Below are positions 985-20,002 of a stretch of DNA of 26,144 bases, one piece after another; the stretch's first letter is position 1, and each line of letters opens with the position of its first letter. Position numbers and translations under genes: made by a program. The notes under the pieces were generated by a model that searched no databases, was not told the origin of the DNA, and saw only the letters and a program-made list of their open reading frames with translations. The DNA is from a virus. The DNA is taken from IMG/VR virus record IMGVR_UViG_3300025133_000530, positions 1 through 26,144 of that record, one strand, 5' to 3'.

Positions 985-3900
985 TTATTCCTCTTTTATT
1001 TTAGATTTTAATTGCTCGACTTCTGCCGAGAGTTCTTGGACTGCTTTAATCAGTGGATGCACAAACATTTCTTGAGAAACAGCTTGTATTTCTTCGCCTT
1101 CCTCTGTCATATTCCAACCACCAAAATCAGTTATGTCGTGTTTATCTAGTGCTTCTTTAACTTCTTGTGCAATGAGTCCATACATTTTATTTGTAGAAAC
1201 AGGCATCCCTTCCGAATCTGTTGCATCATAGTCTGGTAATGAAGGATCAATTTCAGATTTCTTTTTCCACTTATAAGTAATGGGTCGTAAATCGTTAATA
1301 AAAGCTAATCCACAATCAGTATTGTCTTGTATGTCTTTTTTATATCTTACATCTGATACTCTTGTCCAAGAGGCATCAGTACCAAAAGCGTTCCAAACTC
1401 TATTGTCTCCATTTCCCGAACCAAAAGTAAATCGTGAAGCGCCAGTGCTAATACAGTCTTCTCCAATTGCAATTTGATAACTTGCATTGCTCGCACTTGC
1501 ATCTGCCCTTTGCCCAATTATTGTATTTCTATATCCAGTTGTTATTACATCACCAGCCATCGTTCCAACACAAACATTCAACCCGCCTGTTGTGATTAAA
1601 TCTCCAGCGCCCTGTCCAATTACTGTGTTATCGGAAGATGTGGTATTCGCTGTTAAAGCAAAAGCACCAACGGCTACGTTATTTGCTCCCGTGGTATTTG
1701 CTGTTAAAGCATCATAACCAATAGCAGTGTTTCCATTAGCAGTGGTATTTGCATCTAGTGCCATAGCACCTAGTGCTACATTCTGCGTTCCAGTTGTATT
1801 TTTTGTACCCGCTTTATTTCCAATGAATGTGTTGTATTCTGCGGTGGTGTTGTCGTTTCCCGCTTCATGTCCAACGAATACATTTTCAGCACCTGTGCAA
1901 GCAGCTCCCGCGCCTTTACCGACTGCAACATTCATGTTGGTTGAGCTTACGCTTTCTAAAGCCTCGACACCAATCGCAATGTTATTGGAGCCTGTTGTGA
2001 TTGATTGTCCCGCATCACGACCCATACCAATGTTGTTATCGCCAGTTGTATTTGCTGCCAGTGCATCTTTACCTACGGCTGTTAAAGAGGCACCTGTGGT
2101 GTTTGCTGTTAAGGCTTCATAACCAACAGCTACATTATTACTAGCGGTTGTATTAGCATCAAGAGCAGACCTACCCACAGCTACGTTTTGAGTACCTGTT
2201 GTATTAGCAAGCATAGCTGCGGAACCCACTGCTGTATTTGAGTTCGCTGTAGTATTTGCCTTCAAAGCATCCATGCCGATTGCTACGTTATTGTCTCCAT
2301 CTGTGGTAGCCAGTAAAGCAGACTCACCCACAGCAGTATTGCTGTGTCCTTCGGTATTTGTTTCCATTGAATCAGCACCAATAGAAGTATTATGGTAGCC
2401 TGTGGTATTTGCTACTAAAGCATTTTTACCCATAGAAACATTGCCATAACCTGTGGTGTTTGCTCCTAGAGCAGCATAACCAACGGCTGTATTGTTATCT
2501 GCTGTCGTATTCGCATCAAGAGCATTAGCACCAACGGCTACATTTCTTGTTCCTGTGGTGTTAGCTCCGAGTGCAACTGTTCCAATAGCAGTGTTAGAAT
2601 TTGCAGTGGTATTGGCATCTAGCGCACCATAACCCACTGCTACGTTTGATGTTCCTGTTGTATTTGCAGCCAATGCGTTATAACCAACAGCAACTATGTT
2701 TTCACCAGTGGTGTTGGCAGTAGCAGCTCCATACCCGACTGCTGTATTTGGTGTTCCTGTGGTGTTTGCGTTTAGGGCATTAGATCCAACAGCAACATTG
2801 TTTGCTGCTGTGTTTTCATATAAAGCTCTATAGCCAATACCAACATTGTCCGCAGCAGTTGTGTTATCTGTTAGAGCTTGCATACCAATACCAATATTTC
2901 TAGCGCCTGTTGTGTTAGCTGCTAATGATGCTGAACCGACTGCTACACTAGAATTTGCGGTGGTGTTAGCACCCAAAGCGCCATCACCGATAGCCGTATT
3001 ATCATTACCTGTGGTGTTCGCATCTAGTGCTGCATAGCCAACTGCGGTGTTGTCTGTTCCAGAAGTATTTGCGGTTAAAGCTAAATAGCCAACCGCTACG
3101 TTGCTAGATGCGGTTGTGGCTGCTGCTAGAGCATTTCCCCCAATAGCGACTGACTCATTTCCTGTTGTAAGTGCAGTTCCTGCGTTTCTTCCTACTAAAA
3201 CATGACCATTACCTGTTGTAACTGCATCGCCAGCACCAGAGCCGACTGCGGTGTTATCGTCTGCTGTTGATGCTCCTAAAGCATTTAGACCAATAGCAAC
3301 ATTATTGCTGTGAGTTACATTTGCATCTAGTGTGCCATAACCCACTGCTACATTTGAAGCACCTGTGGTGTTTGCGCCTAAAGCACCATGACCAATACCC
3401 ACATTATTATTTGCTGTGGTATTGCTGTTCAAAGCCGTAAAACCAATCCCTACGTTGCTGTCTCCTGTGGTATTTGCTGTTAAACTTGTTCTGCCAACCG
3501 CAACATTATAATCACCTGTGGTATTTTCTGTTAATGCTTGAAAACCCACACCTACGTTATAACCTCCTGTTGTTTGAGCATCTAAAGCCTCAGAACCTAT
3601 TGCTACACTTTCTATTCCTGTAGTATTAGCTCCGAGAGCATTATCGCCCACTGCAACATTGTCCGATCCAGTCGTGACTGCATCAAGTGCATTCTCACCT
3701 ATGGCTACGTTATCCGTTCCTGTCGTAATTGCTGTACCGAGTGCGCCAGAACCCAGTCCGACATTTCCTGTACCGCCTGTCATATCTAATACGTCAGTTA
3801 CTGCTGCGCCTGCTCCAGCACCATCTGTAACAACCATCTTGATTCCGCCATTCGGAATGACGACATTTGCGCCTGTGCCTTGAGATATTGTTACTTGATA

Positions 3901-4188
3901 ACCCGCGTTGTTTTGAATCACCCAAGTCTTACTGACTGTGTTGGGTGCGAGAGTTACTGTATTGGTTGCGGTGATTGATCCTGTCAGCGTTAGAGCAAAG
4001 GCTCTGGCTGCATCGGCAGTACCATCTGCCATCGTAATTGTGTGCGAAGTTCCTGTAATGGCTTCTGAGCCAGAACCCCATGCTTCCGCAATTAATTCTA
4101 AATTTGTATTGGTACTCGTTCCCCAAGTACCCGACTCATCGCCTGTAGCGATTTCTTTAAGCCTTAGATCGTTTACATAAGTTGCCAT
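985..4188 (-). CDS. Giant tail fibre/spike with 17-residue repeats and S74 self-cleaving chaperone domain
   Basis: This 1067-residue protein is a receptor-binding fibre or spike candidate. The N-terminal ~135 residues (MATYVNDLRLKEIATGDESG...) resemble virion-attachment domains of marine phage fibres. Residues about 140-920 are roughly 45 copies of a 17-residue repeat of form N-[TV]-A-[VI]-G-x-x-A-L-x-A-N-T-T-[GA]-x-x, similar to YadA-head/Hep_Hag left-handed beta-roll repeats in trimeric adhesins. From about residue 945, SDVRYKKDI and YGLIAQEV are hallmarks of the peptidase S74 intramolecular chaperone, which trimerises and then releases itself by cleavage at the Ser of 'SD.R.K'. The last ~20 residues are a coiled coil. 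The start follows an AAGAGGAAT site. Confidence 0.9.
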   Translation of the reverse strand: MATYVNDLRLKEIATGDESGTWGTSTNTNLELIAEAWGSGSEAITGTSHTITMADGTADAARAFALTLTGSITATNTVTLAPNTVSKTWVIQNNAGYQVTISQGTGANVVIPNGGIKMVVTDGAGAGAAVTDVLDMTGGTGNVGLGSGALGTAITTGTDNVAIGENALDAVTTGSDNVAVGDNALGANTTGIESVAIGSEALDAQTTGGYNVGVGFQALTENTTGDYNVAVGRTSLTANTTGDSNVGIGFTALNSNTTANNNVGIGHGALGANTTGASNVAVGYGTLDANVTHSNNVAIGLNALGASTADDNTAVGSGAGDAVTTGNGHVLVGRNAGTALTTGNESVAIGGNALAAATTASSNVAVGYLALTANTSGTDNTAVGYAALDANTTGNDNTAIGDGALGANTTANSSVAVGSASLAANTTGARNIGIGMQALTDNTTAADNVGIGYRALYENTAANNVAVGSNALNANTTGTPNTAVGYGAATANTTGENIVAVGYNALAANTTGTSNVAVGYGALDANTTANSNTAIGTVALGANTTGTRNVAVGANALDANTTADNNTAVGYAALGANTTGYGNVSMGKNALVANTTGYHNTSIGADSMETNTEGHSNTAVGESALLATTDGDNNVAIGMDALKANTTANSNTAVGSAAMLANTTGTQNVAVGRSALDANTTASNNVAVGYEALTANTTGASLTAVGKDALAANTTGDNNIGMGRDAGQSITTGSNNIAIGVEALESVSSTNMNVAVGKGAGAACTGAENVFVGHEAGNDNTTAEYNTFIGNKAGTKNTTGTQNVALGAMALDANTTANGNTAIGYDALTANTTGANNVAVGAFALTANTTSSDNTVIGQGAGDLITTGGLNVCVGTMAGDVITTGYRNTIIGQRADASASNASYQIAIGEDCISTGASRFTFGSGNGDNRVWNAFGTDASWTRVSDVRYKKDIQDNTDCGLAFINDLRPITYKWKKKSEIDPSLPDYDATDSEGMPVSTNKMYGLIAQEVKEALDKHDITDFGGWNMTEEGEEIQAVSQEMFVHPLIKAVQELSAEVEQLKSKIKEE

Positions 4189-4235
4189 TTATTCGATTCC
4201 TCTTATTGTTTCATATATTATACGAAGATTACTCA

Positions 4236-5066
4236 TTACGCTACTTCTTTCCAGTCTGGGCTTTGCGAATCATCTATACTCGACCACCCTGGAGTCTGCG
4301 AATCACTTACCGCAGACCAACTTGGATCTTGAGAATCATCAACTATTCCCCAAACAGTTAATTGACTAATTTGCCCTATTGCGCTAATTCCTGTAACTGA
4401 AACTCCTGCACTTGCTTGAGGAGTAAGATCACCAATTTGTCCTGTACTAGCACTTTGCGTAACAGAAATAACATTATTGCTAACAGTGCTGATTGTGCCT
4501 AATGCACTTGTTGCAGCCAATCCTGTAGGATAAACATTTGCGTCACAAGTAACTGTTTCATCGCCTTGCGATATTGTTGAAGCAGCACCGCTAACACCTA
4601 CAATCGCTACGCCATTTGCGACAACTGTACCAACCGCACCTGTACCAGCTACTCCTGTTTCACTGACATTCGCATCACCGCTTACTGATTCTGTGCCTAA
4701 AGCACTAGTACCAGCAACTCCTGTTACAGAAAGATTAGCTACACCTGTGACAGTTAAACTATTTACTGCTCCTGTACCAGCTACTCCTGTTTCGCTTACA
4801 TTCGCACCAGCAGATATACTTAATGATCCTAGTGCACTTGTTCCAGCTACTCCTGTTTCTGTAACATTTGCAACACCTGTTACAGTTAGACTGCCGATAC
4901 CACCTGTGGCTGCAACACCTGTCTCTGCGACATTGGCATCACAACTAACGGTCTCTGTTCCTAGGGCAGTAGTTCCCGCAACACCTGTTACATTAACTGT
5001 AACACTAACAATTGCAGGTTCACCCCACGGACCAGTACCCCATGTGGATCGACCCCAACCAGACAT
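4236..5066 (-). CDS. Repeat-rich tail/virion structural protein
   Basis: This 276-residue protein begins MSGWGRSTWGTGPWGEP, a Trp/Gly-rich head, followed by about nine degenerate repeats built on TGVAGTSALG and spaced roughly 20 residues apart. The beta-rich, charge-poor pattern is typical of phage tail or fibre proteins. The last ~35 residues hold three short repeats of the form DDSQ.P.W. It lies between a small structural protein and the giant fibre gene and is presumably expressed late with them. The exact role (fibre, tail knob, or decoration) cannot be read from sequence. The repeat core also appears at the end of the zinc-ribbon protein at 7161-7496. Confidence 0.8.
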   Translation of the reverse strand: MSGWGRSTWGTGPWGEPAIVSVTVNVTGVAGTTALGTETVSCDANVAETGVAATGGIGSLTVTGVANVTETGVAGTSALGSLSISAGANVSETGVAGTGAVNSLTVTGVANLSVTGVAGTSALGTESVSGDANVSETGVAGTGAVGTVVANGVAIVGVSGAASTISQGDETVTCDANVYPTGLAATSALGTISTVSNNVISVTQSASTGQIGDLTPQASAGVSVTGISAIGQISQLTVWGIVDDSQDPSWSAVSDSQTPGWSSIDDSQSPDWKEVA

Positions 5067-15339: not shown

Positions 15340-16857
15340 TTAATAGTAAACCATTTCCCTGTGTCGGTATCCATCAAATGGGTCTTCGTAATCAGAAGCC
15401 AACTGGACAAAACCGCCTTGGCGAAACCGTAAAACTGCTTGAGACATTGAATCGACTAAGTCATCATGATCACCGTTTGGAAAAGCTGCACACTCTTCTA
15501 CAACTTCCGTCGCCCAGTGTGTGTCGGGCTTCCAGACCATTCCTGACTCAAATAAAGGGGTGCATGCGTTTACTCGAGCCACCTTGTCTGCGCCTTTACT
15601 CGGAGTAAAGTTCTGTACAGGGATGCCGATTCTTCTTAATTCTTGTGTGAGGGGAGTTCCGCTTCCTTTCGCCTCGATAATTACTGTGTCTGGATCCCAG
15701 TGCTCGTAAAGTTCTAATGCTTTGCGCTTTAGTTCAGGAAACTCCAACCTTTGTTTAACGGAATCTAACAATATAAGGTGGGCAACTTCCCCTTGATAAA
15801 AGTCTTCGCCTATACGTCCGTGTGGGTAAAATACACCCCAAGTCGTAATTGCTGAATAATCCGCAGTCTCTGATTTCAAAAATGCCGTATCGTAACTTTG
15901 TATAACGTACTCACATTCAGGTGGCTTTTCAGTTGGCCATTCTTTCCACCACTCACGTTTAATTAATGCACCTTCTTCTGAAGACGGCGATTGCATGTAT
16001 TGAGCAAACCATTTCGGTCCATTACCGAGTGCTGCCTTAATTGCTTCCAGTTCTTCAACTTTCCAGTACTCTGGCCAGACTGCGTCTCCACTCGGCAATA
16101 TAGCTGGTAGTTCTATTACTTCCCACTGATCGTTTTGAGAGCTACGAGACATATCCTTGATTAATCGCCCTGTTAGGTCTTTAACTGACCAACGGGTCAT
16201 AACGATAACTATCGCTCCTCCAGGCTGAAGCCTTTGCCGTGGTCCAGAAGTATACCACTCATACGCGTCATCCAGTGCTGCTTTTGACATTGCATCTTGC
16301 TCTGAGTGCGGATCGTCAATAATAAAGAGGTCTGCACCCCGTCCAGCGATCGCACCGCCTGTACCTACCGCATAATACTCCCCTCGTATCGTCGGTTGGT
16401 TCTCTGCCATGGTTTCCCACTTTCCTGCTGCTTTTGAATCTGGGTTTAGTACCGTATCGGGGAAAATGCGTTTATATATGTCGGATTGTATTAAATCCCT
16501 TACTTTACGACCAAAACGCACCGCAAGGTCGGATGTATGCGTTGCTTGTATGATTTTAAGTGCAGGATTGCGCCCTATTAGGTACGCTGGGAGTAAAAAG
16601 CTCGCAAACTCACTTTTTGTATGTCTTGGAGGCATATTGATGATTAATCGCTTTAAAGTGCCGTCGGCTATGCGGTTAAAGGCTTCTGCGACTATCTTAT
16701 GGTGATGACCTTCTATAAAACTTGGCCACTGGCTTTTGACAAAGGCTAAAAACTCTTGCTGAGAGGACTCTACCTCAGTTATCTCTTTAATTCGTTCAGT
16801 GAGCTCATAGTACTCTTTTAACGTGTCCTCGGGGAGATTATTGAGGTCTTTATTCAT
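15340..16857 (-). CDS. terL: Terminase large subunit
   Basis: I choose ATG 16857 (MNKDLNNLPEDTLKEYY): GGAAGAAA precedes it and it overlaps the upstream stop by eight bases; the frame is open further upstream inside that gene. The 505-residue motor has the Walker A-like PPRHTKSE (residues 76-83), Walker B FIIDDP (178-183), and the nuclease acidic residues in SYDTAF (Asp323), VIIEAKGSG (Glu395) and DHDDLVDS (Asp465/466). It cuts concatemeric DNA and pumps it through the portal using ATP. The 'PPRH.KS' form belongs to the Terminase_6-type group. TerS lies two genes upstream. Confidence 0.95.
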   Translation of the reverse strand: MNKDLNNLPEDTLKEYYELTERIKEITEVESSQQEFLAFVKSQWPSFIEGHHHKIVAEAFNRIADGTLKRLIINMPPRHTKSEFASFLLPAYLIGRNPALKIIQATHTSDLAVRFGRKVRDLIQSDIYKRIFPDTVLNPDSKAAGKWETMAENQPTIRGEYYAVGTGGAIAGRGADLFIIDDPHSEQDAMSKAALDDAYEWYTSGPRQRLQPGGAIVIVMTRWSVKDLTGRLIKDMSRSSQNDQWEVIELPAILPSGDAVWPEYWKVEELEAIKAALGNGPKWFAQYMQSPSSEEGALIKREWWKEWPTEKPPECEYVIQSYDTAFLKSETADYSAITTWGVFYPHGRIGEDFYQGEVAHLILLDSVKQRLEFPELKRKALELYEHWDPDTVIIEAKGSGTPLTQELRRIGIPVQNFTPSKGADKVARVNACTPLFESGMVWKPDTHWATEVVEECAAFPNGDHDDLVDSMSQAVLRFRQGGFVQLASDYEDPFDGYRHREMVYY

Positions 16858-17233
16858 TTTCTTCCCAATACTGTTTCCAAGAATTTTCAAACTTTGTTGC
16901 TTCCGTGTGGTTTCTAAAACGAATATACTCACCTTTCTCTACAGCATATTCTAGTGCTTCTTGTGGATTTTCAAACTTATGGTAGCCTTTTTCTGGATCC
17001 CAAACGACCATGGGTAAAACCATCCCAGGAGTAGAGTCGTCTAATGCCCCAAAAGTCACCATTCTGTGCGAATATGGGAGTTTGTCTTCTCCAACTGGGT
17101 ATGGTTTGTATTTTTCTGGATTTAGGATCCTGTCTACAAAATTTTTGTTTTTATTGTCTTCTAGGACAGAAGTTACTACAGATAGCGGAAATTTTTCTTT
17201 TTCTTCTGTATATAGTGGCTTTTCAATGCTCAT
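16850..17233 (-). CDS. Unknown protein between TerS and TerL (127 aa)
   Basis: The 127-residue protein is soluble, with a basic/acidic mix. It includes PEKYKPYPVGEDKLPYSHRMVTFGALDD (about 39-66), then MVLPMVVWDPEKGYHKFENPQEALEYAVEKGEYIRFRN. The second half ('...a.eyA...geyi.f.n...a..f...W....') resembles a small alpha/beta domain common in phage hypothetical proteins near terminases. I do not recognise a named family. It overlaps TerS by four bases and TerL by eight, so it is translationally coupled to the packaging motor and could be an accessory packaging factor. Confidence 0.8.
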   Translation of the reverse strand: MSIEKPLYTEEKEKFPLSVVTSVLEDNKNKNFVDRILNPEKYKPYPVGEDKLPYSHRMVTFGALDDSTPGMVLPMVVWDPEKGYHKFENPQEALEYAVEKGEYIRFRNHTEATKFENSWKQYWEENE

Positions 17234-18367: not shown

Positions 18368-18416
18368 GTGAAATTTGCAAAATCCAATATCCATGGACAA
18401 TGCCTCTCCAAATCTT

Positions 18417-18440
18417 ACCCTTTAGCTATAGCTACAGGGT
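18417..18440. repeat. 24-base near-perfect palindrome at the edge of the restricted segment
   Basis: ACCCT (18417-18421) and AGGGT (18436-18440) flank the perfect palindrome TAGCTATAGCTA (18423-18434); only the pair at 18422/18435 fails to match. It lies directly at the left border of the dinucleotide-depleted segment. Possible roles are protein binding or a hairpin; none is proven. Confidence 0.6.
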
Positions 18441-18532
18441 TATGCTATAAAGGGGGGCGGGGCTACCCCTACGGCTTAGTTATAGCCCTTTTAAGCGCTT
18501 TACTTTTATACCCCTTTACTACCCTAGCCCCT

Positions 18533-18572
18533 ATAAAAAAATAAGCCCCCTAGCTATTAACTAGGGGGCTTA
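18533..18572 (-). terminator. Strong intrinsic terminator of the restricted-grammar gene
   Basis: TAAGCCCCCTAG (18542-18553) pairs perfectly over 12 bases with CTAGGGGGCTTA (18561-18572), with a seven-base loop. On the minus strand the stem is followed at once by ATTTTTTTATAG. It begins 11 bases after the TAA at 18583. It obeys the local ban on GA, TC, CA and TG. Confidence 0.9.
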
Positions 18573-18582
18573 CGGCTTACGC

Positions 18583-18906
18583 TTAACTTATAGTTATAAA
18601 CCCTTTACCTAAAAAGTAATTTAAGCCCGTTTTATTAAAAACGTTAGGGTTAAGCGTTACCCCCGCTTTAGCTAACGCTTTATTACTTATAGCGTTAGTT
18701 ATATTAGCGTTAGGGTATAGCTTAGCGTTTACTATATTACCTACGGTAGCGCCCGCGTAAATACTAGTAGCTATATAGTAGTTATTACCCCCTAGCCTAG
18801 CGGTATTACCCGCGCTTATAGTTTTAGTTATAGGGTAAGCTACCCCGCCTATAGTTACGCTTTTTACGGTAGGGTTAGCGTTAGTACCTTTAGTTTTATT
18901 AACCAT
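18583..18906 (-). CDS. Small protein encoded in restricted dinucleotide grammar (107 aa)
   Basis: The ORF runs from ATG 18906 to TAA 18583. The upstream AAAGGTAATAAAAA matches the AAGGTGAA ribosome-binding sites of its neighbours with TG and GA removed. The 107-residue product has no Asp, Glu, Gln, His, Cys or Trp, no Met after the first, Ser only from AGY codons and Phe only from TTT. It is rich in Asn (16) and Lys (9) and therefore very basic. Pieces resemble the protein at 19664-19954: TISAG..AR.GGN against TISATGKQPRAGHN, and a C-terminal L.Y..GKGFITI against LRYMVKYGYITV. Function unknown. The intact frame with its own promoter and terminator argues that it is expressed. Confidence 0.7.
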   Translation of the reverse strand: MVNKTKGTNANPTVKSVTIGGVAYPITKTISAGNTARLGGNNYYIATSIYAGATVGNIVNAKLYPNANITNAISNKALAKAGVTLNPNVFNKTGLNYFLGKGFITIS

Positions 18907-18960
18907 TTTTTATTACCTTTATTTACGTTACTAAACTTAATTATTTAATAACTACTATTA

Positions 18961-18988
18961 ATACTACGCTTTTTAACGGGTAAGTAAA
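18961..18988 (-). promoter_or_regulatory. Candidate promoter inside the restricted segment
   Basis: TTTACT (18988-18983), 16 bases, then TAGTAT (18966-18961) on the minus strand, about 55 bases before the ATG at 18906. A second candidate starts with TTTACT at 19049-19044 followed after 17 bases by TAGTTT (19026-19021). Both share the -35 of the other promoters in the window, and neither -10 contains TG, unlike the TATGCT used elsewhere. Confidence 0.45.
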
Positions 18989-19059
18989 GGGGTATAAATA
19001 TAATATTTAGTTATAAGGTAAAACTATATAACTAGTAGTTATAAGTAAAGGGGTAGCCA

Positions 19060-19150
19060 CATACACACGAATGCGAGCATGAACAAGAACATGAGCATGA
19101 ACAAGAGTATGAGTTCGGGTTTGGTTTTGTTTATCTTTATCTTTATCGAG
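19060..19150. repeat. Low-complexity GAA/CAA-type spacer 1, with 18-base tandem repeat
   Basis: The stretch consists of short words such as GAGCATGAACAAGAACAT, present as two adjacent 18-base copies (19075-19092 and 19093-19110, 16 of 18 identical), followed by TTTATCTTTATC. It begins where the dinucleotide-depleted segment stops and is very rich in exactly the steps missing there (GA, CA, TC, TG). It has no credible ORF. It lies between the hairpin after the 82-residue gene and the next unit's promoter. Confidence 0.7.
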
Positions 19151-19157
19151 GTTTAGA

Positions 19158-19193
19158 GCTCATGGTTCTGTAAGGTAAACCAGAACCATGAGC
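19158..19193 (-). terminator. 13-base perfect hairpin after the 82-residue gene
   Basis: GCTCATGGTTCTG (19158-19170) pairs perfectly with CAGAACCATGAGC (19181-19193) around a 10-base loop. It starts nine bases after the stop codon at 19202. No T-tract follows on the minus strand, so it may be a Rho-dependent end, an RNA-stabilising hairpin or a protein site, not a classic intrinsic terminator. Confidence 0.6.
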
Positions 19194-19201
19194 CACGGGG
19201 G

Positions 19202-19450: not shown

Positions 19451-19471
19451 AATTTCACCTTATAGTAATTT

Positions 19472-19500
19472 ATTACCCTACTATAGTAGTAAAAAGTAAA
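19472..19500 (-). promoter_or_regulatory. Promoter of accessory unit 2
   Basis: TTTACT (19500-19495), a 17-base spacer, then GGTAAT (19477-19472) on the minus strand, 21 bases before the ATG at 19450. The -10 matches the consensus in four of six places; the spacer agrees with the other sites. An alternative -10 (TATAGT) lies closer but at a poor distance. Confidence 0.4.
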
Positions 19501-19523
19501 GGGAAGACCTAGTAGATTATACC

Positions 19524-19620
19524 CAGCGTGAGTTCATGTTCTTCTTGTTGTTCTTATGCTTATGCTGAACAACAAGAAGAAGAATCTTGGTTCGTGTTCT
19601 TGTTCTTGGGGATTATCGGT
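19524..19620. repeat. Low-complexity GAA/CAA-type spacer 2 with 15-base inverted repeat
   Basis: TTCTTCTTGTTGTTC (19539-19553) and its exact reverse complement (19567-19581) flank a 13-base loop TTATGCTTATGCT, followed by a TTC/TTG-rich stretch. The 20 bases at 19588-19607 (TGGTTCGTGTTCTTGTTCTT) recur exactly in spacer 3. It is built of A-pairs or T-pairs separated by single G or C. No ORF is credible. It lies between the terminator of unit 1 and the promoter of unit 2. Confidence 0.75.
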
Positions 19621-19626
19621 TAGAGA

Positions 19627-19656
19627 AAATCCCCCTTACCTAAGCAAGAGGGATTT
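19627..19656 (-). terminator. Intrinsic terminator of accessory unit 1
   Basis: AAATCCCCCTT (19627-19637) and AAGAGGGATTT (19646-19656) form an 11-base stem with one G-U pair in the minus-strand RNA and an eight-base loop. It starts eight bases after the stop at 19664, and the minus strand continues with TTTTCTCTAACC. Confidence 0.75.
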
Positions 19657-19663
19657 CTTGGGA

Positions 19664-19954
19664 TTACCCTACGGTAATATAGCCGTACTTGACCATATAG
19701 CGCAAAGCCGATGTATCTCGTTGAAATCCACCGAGCATTTTATCACTATTTTTAATAGCGATGAAATCCCCAATGGTGAGACCATCAAAAGCATCAACCC
19801 AATCTTGGTTGTGCCCAGCTCTTGGTTGTTTTCCTGTAGCGCTAATAGTAGCGGTAACAAGATAACCACCCATACCCTTGACTTCTACTTTAGTAGAAGC
19901 TTGAGCCTTGACCTTCTTAACTGCGGTTTTTTCAGCTTTACTTAATTTTGGCAT
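19664..19954 (-). CDS. Unknown small protein, accessory unit 1 (96 aa), possible relative of the restricted-grammar protein
   Basis: I choose ATG 19954 (MPKLSKAEKTAVKKVKAQ), which follows AAAAGGTGAACAAA; the in-frame GTG at 19963 is part of that ribosome-binding site. The 96-residue product has a Lys/Ala-rich helical start, then KGMGGYLVTATISATGKQPRAGH, DGLTIGDFIAIKN and an end TSALRYMVKYGYITVG. Parts align by eye with the protein at 18583-18906, which would make the two paralogues with quite different base use. It lies alone between a promoter with 17-base spacer and an intrinsic terminator. The family is unknown. Confidence 0.75.
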   Translation of the reverse strand: MPKLSKAEKTAVKKVKAQASTKVEVKGMGGYLVTATISATGKQPRAGHNQDWVDAFDGLTIGDFIAIKNSDKMLGGFQRDTSALRYMVKYGYITVG

Positions 19955-20002
19955 TTTGTTCACCTTTTAAGTTATTGCTACCCGTTATTAGGTAGTAAAG
20001 AT

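Follow-up and report, generated by a model that had tools for sequence, protein, structure and literature searches.

A 615-nt segment of an uncultured virus genome lacks, on both strands, every TG and TC dinucleotide apart from the one contained in a start codon. The segment lies in a 26,144-nt stretch of DNA, referred to here as the window, which comprises positions 1 to 26,144 of record IMGVR_UViG_3300025133_000530. With S standing for G or C, the rule is the absence of TS on either strand (ST denotes the reverse order), and TS-poor segments of this kind are referred to as islands. The reading favored here, with a probability of roughly two in three, is that the island constitutes a transcription unit from which the base modification made by the phage itself is excluded, which would allow host RNA polymerase to read it from glycosylated DNA.

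A Predicted Transcription Unit Without TG or TC

Exact counting over window positions 18444-19058 finds a single forbidden step among GA, TC, CA and TG, namely the CA at 18904-18905, which is the complement of the TG in a minus-strand ATG start codon. The segment thus consists of uninterrupted rule-obeying runs of 461 and 154 nt, compared to 47 nt for the next longest run in the window and to a longest run averaging 30 nt (maximum 43 nt) in 200 simulated first-order Markov windows of 26 kb. Forbidden steps occur at an average of 0.24 per base in the window, which predicts about 148 in 615 nt, in agreement with the approximately 150 given in a preliminary description of this DNA. That description had also presented the rule as closed under reverse complement, as it must be given that the four steps are both strands of TG and TC, and as a local, DNA-level property from which neighboring genes are exempt, which matches the normal density of TS in the rest of the window. 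Only CA/TG and GA/TC are missing from the island; all other dinucleotide classes are present at 0.7 of expectation or more, with TA at 2.0 and CC/GG, CG and GC enriched. Assembly error, considered earlier as a possible cause, is contradicted by a second metagenome contig (IMGVR_UViG_3300025084_004481) whose island has runs of the same lengths and encodes an identical protein, and by diverged islands in further contigs.

The promoter region, ribosome-binding site, open reading frame (ORF) and terminator had all been said to obey the rule, and they do. These and the neighboring elements are:

18444-19058, no strand assigned: TS-free island, without TG or TC on either strand except in the start codon (exact count)
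18583-18906, minus strand: ORF of 107 amino acids, member of a small winged-helix-like family (weak fold matches)
18904-18906, minus strand: ATG start codon, which holds the island's sole TS site (exact count)
18915-18920, minus strand: ribosome-binding site AAAGGT, read in the sequence
18983-18988, minus strand: TS-free TTTACT box, proximal -35-like element, from sequence
19044-19049, minus strand: TS-free TTTACT box, distal -35-like element, from sequence
18541-18573, minus strand: predicted intrinsic terminator that obeys the rule, a 15-bp stem followed by a T run
18413-18480, no strand assigned: conserved C-run and inverted-repeat element at the junction of the island and the structural operon
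19059-19200, no strand assigned: TS-containing spacer and hairpin adjoining the island, where the rule stops abruptly
19664-19963, minus strand: gene for a 99-amino-acid protein of the same family, with ordinary TS content
15340-16932, minus strand: terminase large subunit, the anchor for finding relatives

Beyond the terminator, the rule continues for about 100 nt. The predicted signals would make the gene a single transcribed unit, as would suit selection on the mRNA to escape cleavage at UG, UC, CA or GA by an RNase or toxin. Selection of this type is nevertheless extremely improbable, as the rule also holds outside the transcript, in the upstream promoter and beyond the terminator, and applies to both strands with exact symmetry.

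The C-run and inverted repeat precede the late promoter and have equivalents beside the islands in contigs L139, L152 and L173; from its sequence, the element is a possible packaging site (pac) or origin. The motif CTTTACT occurs 0.72 times per kb in island genomes compared to 0.16 in pelagiphage controls, an approximately fourfold difference. Elsewhere in the window, small cassette genes and conserved hairpin modules are found at 19456-19503 and across the 17-26 kb cassette region, and positions 985-4188 (minus strand) encode a 1067-amino-acid repetitive protein with VGxxAL and TANTTG repeats, whose C-terminal stretch resembles a tail-fibre chaperone domain.

The Rule Is Kept While the Sequence Diverges

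In a first search, six other viral contigs proved to encode a homologue of the island protein, in five cases with 56% protein identity, and the rule is obeyed in all six. The same holds for a fourth lineage, represented by contigs L027 and L028. Aligned to the window segment, the islands of L006, L002 and L028 show 125, 179 and 169 differences, for which random substitution would predict 73, 97 and 93 TS sites, respectively; two are observed in each segment. Furthermore, synonymous recoding of the window protein yields a mean of 60 and a minimum of 37 TS steps in 2000 draws, against one in the actual gene. These figures reflect selection on the rule rather than decay. The comparison with related phages that the preliminary description had suggested finds the rule kept in three further lineages as the sequence changes. 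Two causes proposed there, a context-dependent mutator and an unusual way of making the DNA, were rejected.

A local mutational process could in principle erase TS, whether by a deaminase acting at TC and CA, by an activity resembling repeat-induced point mutation (RIP), by a diversity-generating retroelement or by error-prone synthesis. If C mutated to T at TC and CA on both strands, precisely the missing steps would be lost, and the doubling of TA is in keeping with this. Such a process is highly improbable, however, as the ORF has remained open and encodes a protein with a high-confidence predicted fold and residues that are conserved across lineages, CC/GG, CG and GC are enriched rather than eroded, ATG is retained in most lineages, and the segment's limits lie close to those of the transcription unit. 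Deaminase or RIP-type hypermutation was rejected on the conserved ORF and fold together with the enrichment of CC/GG and GC. A diversity-generating retroelement was likewise rejected: when 701 nt spanning the island were compared with the window record, the only further matches were short and self-complementary, with no template/variable repeat pair among them, and the differences between lineages are not limited to one base, as adenine-specific variation would be.

The Island Protein and Its Family

The 107-amino-acid product contains no Asp, Glu, His, Gln, Cys or Trp, and no internal Met. The codons of the first six need forbidden steps; in 106 residues, 22.5 of these amino acids would be expected and none is observed (P about 1e-11). 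AlphaFold2 models the protein with a mean pLDDT of 89 and a pTM of 0.78, and the models overall have mean pLDDT values of 85-89. Matches to the PDB are winged-helix-like but weak, with Foldseek E values above 1 and VIA-align Z scores below 5, the best viral match being PhiJL001 gp18 (E 0.03). The product would be a small regulator-like protein, basic at its N-terminus and weakly reminiscent of a winged helix in its predicted fold, and most simply an early regulator. Searches with tblastn of 50,697 phage records returned no isolate homologue of the island protein, of the 99-amino-acid paralogue or of two further family members, and no convincing family was found in Pfam or PHROGs.

Island genomes carry one TS-poor copy of the gene, mostly together with at least one paralogue of ordinary TS content. 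In the window, this paralogue is the 99-amino-acid gene, with about 60 TS and 68 ST steps as counted on a near-identical copy in L001. A profile built from the window's island proteins had no match among 30 genomes of the marine group to which the window belongs, whereas a wider profile places the proteins encoded by the islands of those genomes in the window's small protein family. The alignment of the whole family is too diverged to serve for scanning the collection.

Islands in Other Genomes of the Marine Group

TS-depleted islands of 430-660 nt lie over the same small gene in other genomes of the group. A scan of the group's longer contigs found them in G005, G010, G014, G015, G016/G008, G017 and G029, and a separate terminase-anchored search added loci in L239, L244, L245, L248, L249, L258, L271 and L274. 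In G005, G010, G014, G015, G017 and G029, the TS-poor stretch starts about 140-250 nt upstream of the ORF and ends in the terminator region just 3' of it, and in all of these except G010, promoters resembling TTTACT-(17/18)-TATAAT were found inside the islands. The orientation of the island gene relative to its neighbors varies between genomes.

The start codon poses a particular problem for a TS-free gene, as ATG, GTG and TTG each contain TG. ATG is kept in most lineages, but the island genes at L156:11260-11514 (minus strand; G015) and L173:4949-5227 (minus strand; G029) have no in-frame ATG, GTG, TTG or CTG. Both instead show AAAGGGG followed by ATTATTATTAAT, and probably initiate at AUU. 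On the evidence of these sequences, the price of TS clearance is six amino acids given up and, in some cases, the normal start codon.

Depletion of TS extends to the DNA between other genes, where most of the TS-poor segments outside the islands lie. At a score of at least 20, 46 TS-poor segments were found in the group's genomes, and 61% of their bases, islands included, are intergenic, compared to a background of 11.6%; between genes, TS fractions are 0.40 for the group and 0.51 for controls. Mirror-type, TS-rich segments at matched score were absent from two scans and numbered two, both weak, in the terminase-anchored scan.

A reason at the level of DNA other than transcription would be that the island is a packaging site, origin or recombination site that needs unmodified DNA, with the gene merely lying inside. 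The conserved C-run and inverted repeat adjoining the island next to the structural operon would fit this, as would the extension of the rule past the terminator in the window. In the other genomes, however, the TS-poor stretch runs from 140-250 nt upstream to the terminator region in either gene orientation, one protein family is involved throughout, start codons and amino-acid choice have been altered, and TS is depleted between other genes too. A packaging or replication site is therefore an unlikely explanation, although one with some weight.

In six of the nine island genomes, the 200-nt stretches richest in TS are no more than about 1.3 kb away from the island (L130 about 19620-19820, L173 about 4100-4300, L159 about 11760, L168 about 17060, L152 about 640, L156 about 10460). 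These spacers contain GATC, CATG and GACACA-like sequence, as if strongly modified spacers flanked a plain gene. The TS-rich stretches do not reach a score matching that of the TS-poor segments, and compensating insulator spacers were set aside as a lead only.

The Rule as a Probable Modification Context

According to the preliminary description, no named process gives this pattern. TG and TC are, however, the published context of thymidine hypermodification, a process that reads exactly these dinucleotides. For phages M6, ViI and phiW-14, type II restriction analysis placed hypermodified thymidine, by indication, at TG and TC (PMC6449724), a context that was itself deduced from restriction and mass data. 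When 5hmdU DNA was treated with purified 5hmdU DNA kinase, the only sites to become resistant were those containing TG (NG) or TC (PMC7653180). Patterns in which the base that is read is not T, with adenine modified after G or C, or cytosine modified after T or before A, would be logically equivalent. They are quite unlikely, as T before G or C can be stated in one line and matches a published enzyme specificity, and the neighboring genes are of the hydroxymethyluracil type, with homologues of M6 gp055 and gp058.

The modification genes are known from relatives of the window, whose 26-kb record stops short of that region. The near-complete relative G001 (51.8 kb) encodes an HMUDK_hel protein (PF18723, 165 bits) with 40% identity to M6 gp055. 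It also encodes a homologue of thymidylate synthase that is 44% identical to M6 gp058 and has CMP 5-hydroxymethylase as its best PDB match; a hydroxymethylase-type homologue is also present in G002. Between these two genes, G001 carries a full-length TAGT-type DNA glycosyltransferase (PF20691, 78-94 bits across the relatives; phrog_842, E 9e-49). Among 78 marine loci with HMUDK_hel, the hydroxymethylase-like gene is present in all and the glycosyltransferase in 77. The P-loop 5hmdU DNA kinase of the M6 gp054 type was found in none of the 78, nor in the searched sequence of G001 or G002. Since this kinase is the enzyme to which the TS context has been attributed, that context in the marine group rests on the rule itself. 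Taken together, the gene content makes it very probable that the group makes DNA of the 5-hydroxymethyluracil type that is glycosylated in TS context. G001 also contains an ORF of 561 amino acids with a long uninterrupted Thr-Pro repeat (L032:2023-3708), and in contigs of cellular genomes HMUDK_hel is limited to scattered metagenome-assembled genomes (MAGs).

Association of Islands with the Glycosyltransferase

The glycosyltransferase is present in all nine island genomes tested. G004 (L125-L127), whose contig may be incomplete, has HMUDK_hel and the hydroxymethylase-like gene without the glycosyltransferase, and shows no island and no TS avoidance (TS fraction 0.52). In the HMUDK_hel tree it stands beside the closest relatives of the window with support of 100/99, and could serve as a natural knock-out for comparison. 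Neither TS avoidance nor islands were found in the related phages HTVC023P, HTVC027P, CRP-902 and DSL-LC04, which are without HMUDK_hel. M6, ViI and phiW-14, with the kinase and without the glycosyltransferase, show no TS avoidance, islands or TS-poor promoters, which indicates that modification alone does not force avoidance. One exception to the association is L203, a distant contig from a Methylobacter MAG that matches HMUDK_hel and the glycosyltransferase and has a TS fraction of 0.54 and no avoidance. Several glycosyltransferase-positive genomes, such as G006 and G009, have a weak island or none in the available sequence.

The association with the phage's own glycosyltransferase gene favors the phage's own modification over a host enzyme as the agent being avoided. 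The preliminary description had proposed escape from a nuclease or modification system; of this, the part concerning modification is supported by the modification genes of the relatives, and the part concerning a nuclease is not. A host or rival enzyme that reads SA and TS steps, be it for restriction, modification or degradation, would also lead to loss of these four dinucleotides. It is very unlikely, given that a nuclease would still destroy a genome with normal TS elsewhere, and that a single restriction system needs sites of 4-8 bp rather than all occurrences of a dinucleotide. Restriction-site avoidance was rejected as well, as TS is near normal outside the island and intergenic DNA and there is no genome-wide avoidance.

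A Proposed Modification-Free Transcription Unit

Some modified bases affect transcription. The output of Escherichia coli RNA polymerase on a phosphorylated-5hmU template is 10% of that on a 5hmU template (PMC6457204), and base J, which is glucosylated hydroxymethyluracil, blocks transcription (PMC4111573). Bulky groups generally stop bacterial RNA polymerase at promoters, although glucosylated hydroxymethylcytosine is reported to still permit transcription (PMC11550810).

For the marine group, we propose that T before G or C would be glycosylated hydroxymethyluracil, and that host RNA polymerase would be impeded by modified TS sites, both at promoters and during elongation. The small gene, purged of TS over its promoter, leader, ORF and terminator, could then be read by host RNA polymerase from fully modified DNA. 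The template would most likely be freshly injected DNA, and the gene would act as an immediate-early bootstrap. The same hindrance would explain why the intergenic regions of other genes are TS-poor, with one gene cleared over its whole unit. Taken to its full extent, this would be a coded "epigenetic window", in which one unit stays chemically plain within a modified genome, is recoded down to an AUU start and is the first gene read after injection. The chances of this fuller version appear about even.

The dinucleotide context, the modification and the avoidance of sites are each already known separately. The literature searched, which included few subscription journals, describes no gene whose whole transcription unit, with its residues and start codon, has been cleared of the sites at which its own genome is modified. 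If the proposal is true, heavy DNA modification costs transcription, the virus offsets this cost by recoding one gene, and the start of transcription in hypermodified phages becomes directly testable. The rule also offers a sequence-only route to a modification context (TS) from uncultured virus genomes, and the TS-free genes and their ordinary paralogues form natural pairs for measuring the effects of modified bases on RNA polymerase.

Comparison with Known Systems

The closest parallel is the pathway of M6, ViI and phiW-14, which shares with the marine group a TG/TC target, homologues of HMUDK_hel (aGPT-Pplase1) and of the hydroxymethylase-type thymidylate synthase, and, in M6, a similar gene order before PolA. 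The marine group differs in having a TAGT-type glycosyltransferase in place of the P-loop 5hmdU kinase, and TS-free islands and TS-poor promoters are found in the marine group only. Judged by its genes, the marine pathway works like hypermodification of the M6/ViI type but is not classed as such, the kinase being absent.

Small cassette (moron-like) genes of phages have their own promoter and terminator. The island resembles them as a stand-alone unit between operons with paralogous neighbors, but a compositional rule over the whole unit is a feature of the island only. Phage genomes are also known to show restriction-site avoidance, which, like the rule described here, reflects DNA-level selection against short words. 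The words avoided in the island are, however, 2 nt long, and their avoidance is confined to one gene, is near absolute and would be aimed at the phage's own modification. Base J of kinetoplastids offers a further likeness, in that a glucosyl group on hydroxymethyluracil blocks transcription and the pattern of modification shapes transcription (PMC4111573). Base J is eukaryotic, sparse and made by JBP dioxygenases, whereas in the marine group the sequence itself would exclude the mark from one gene.
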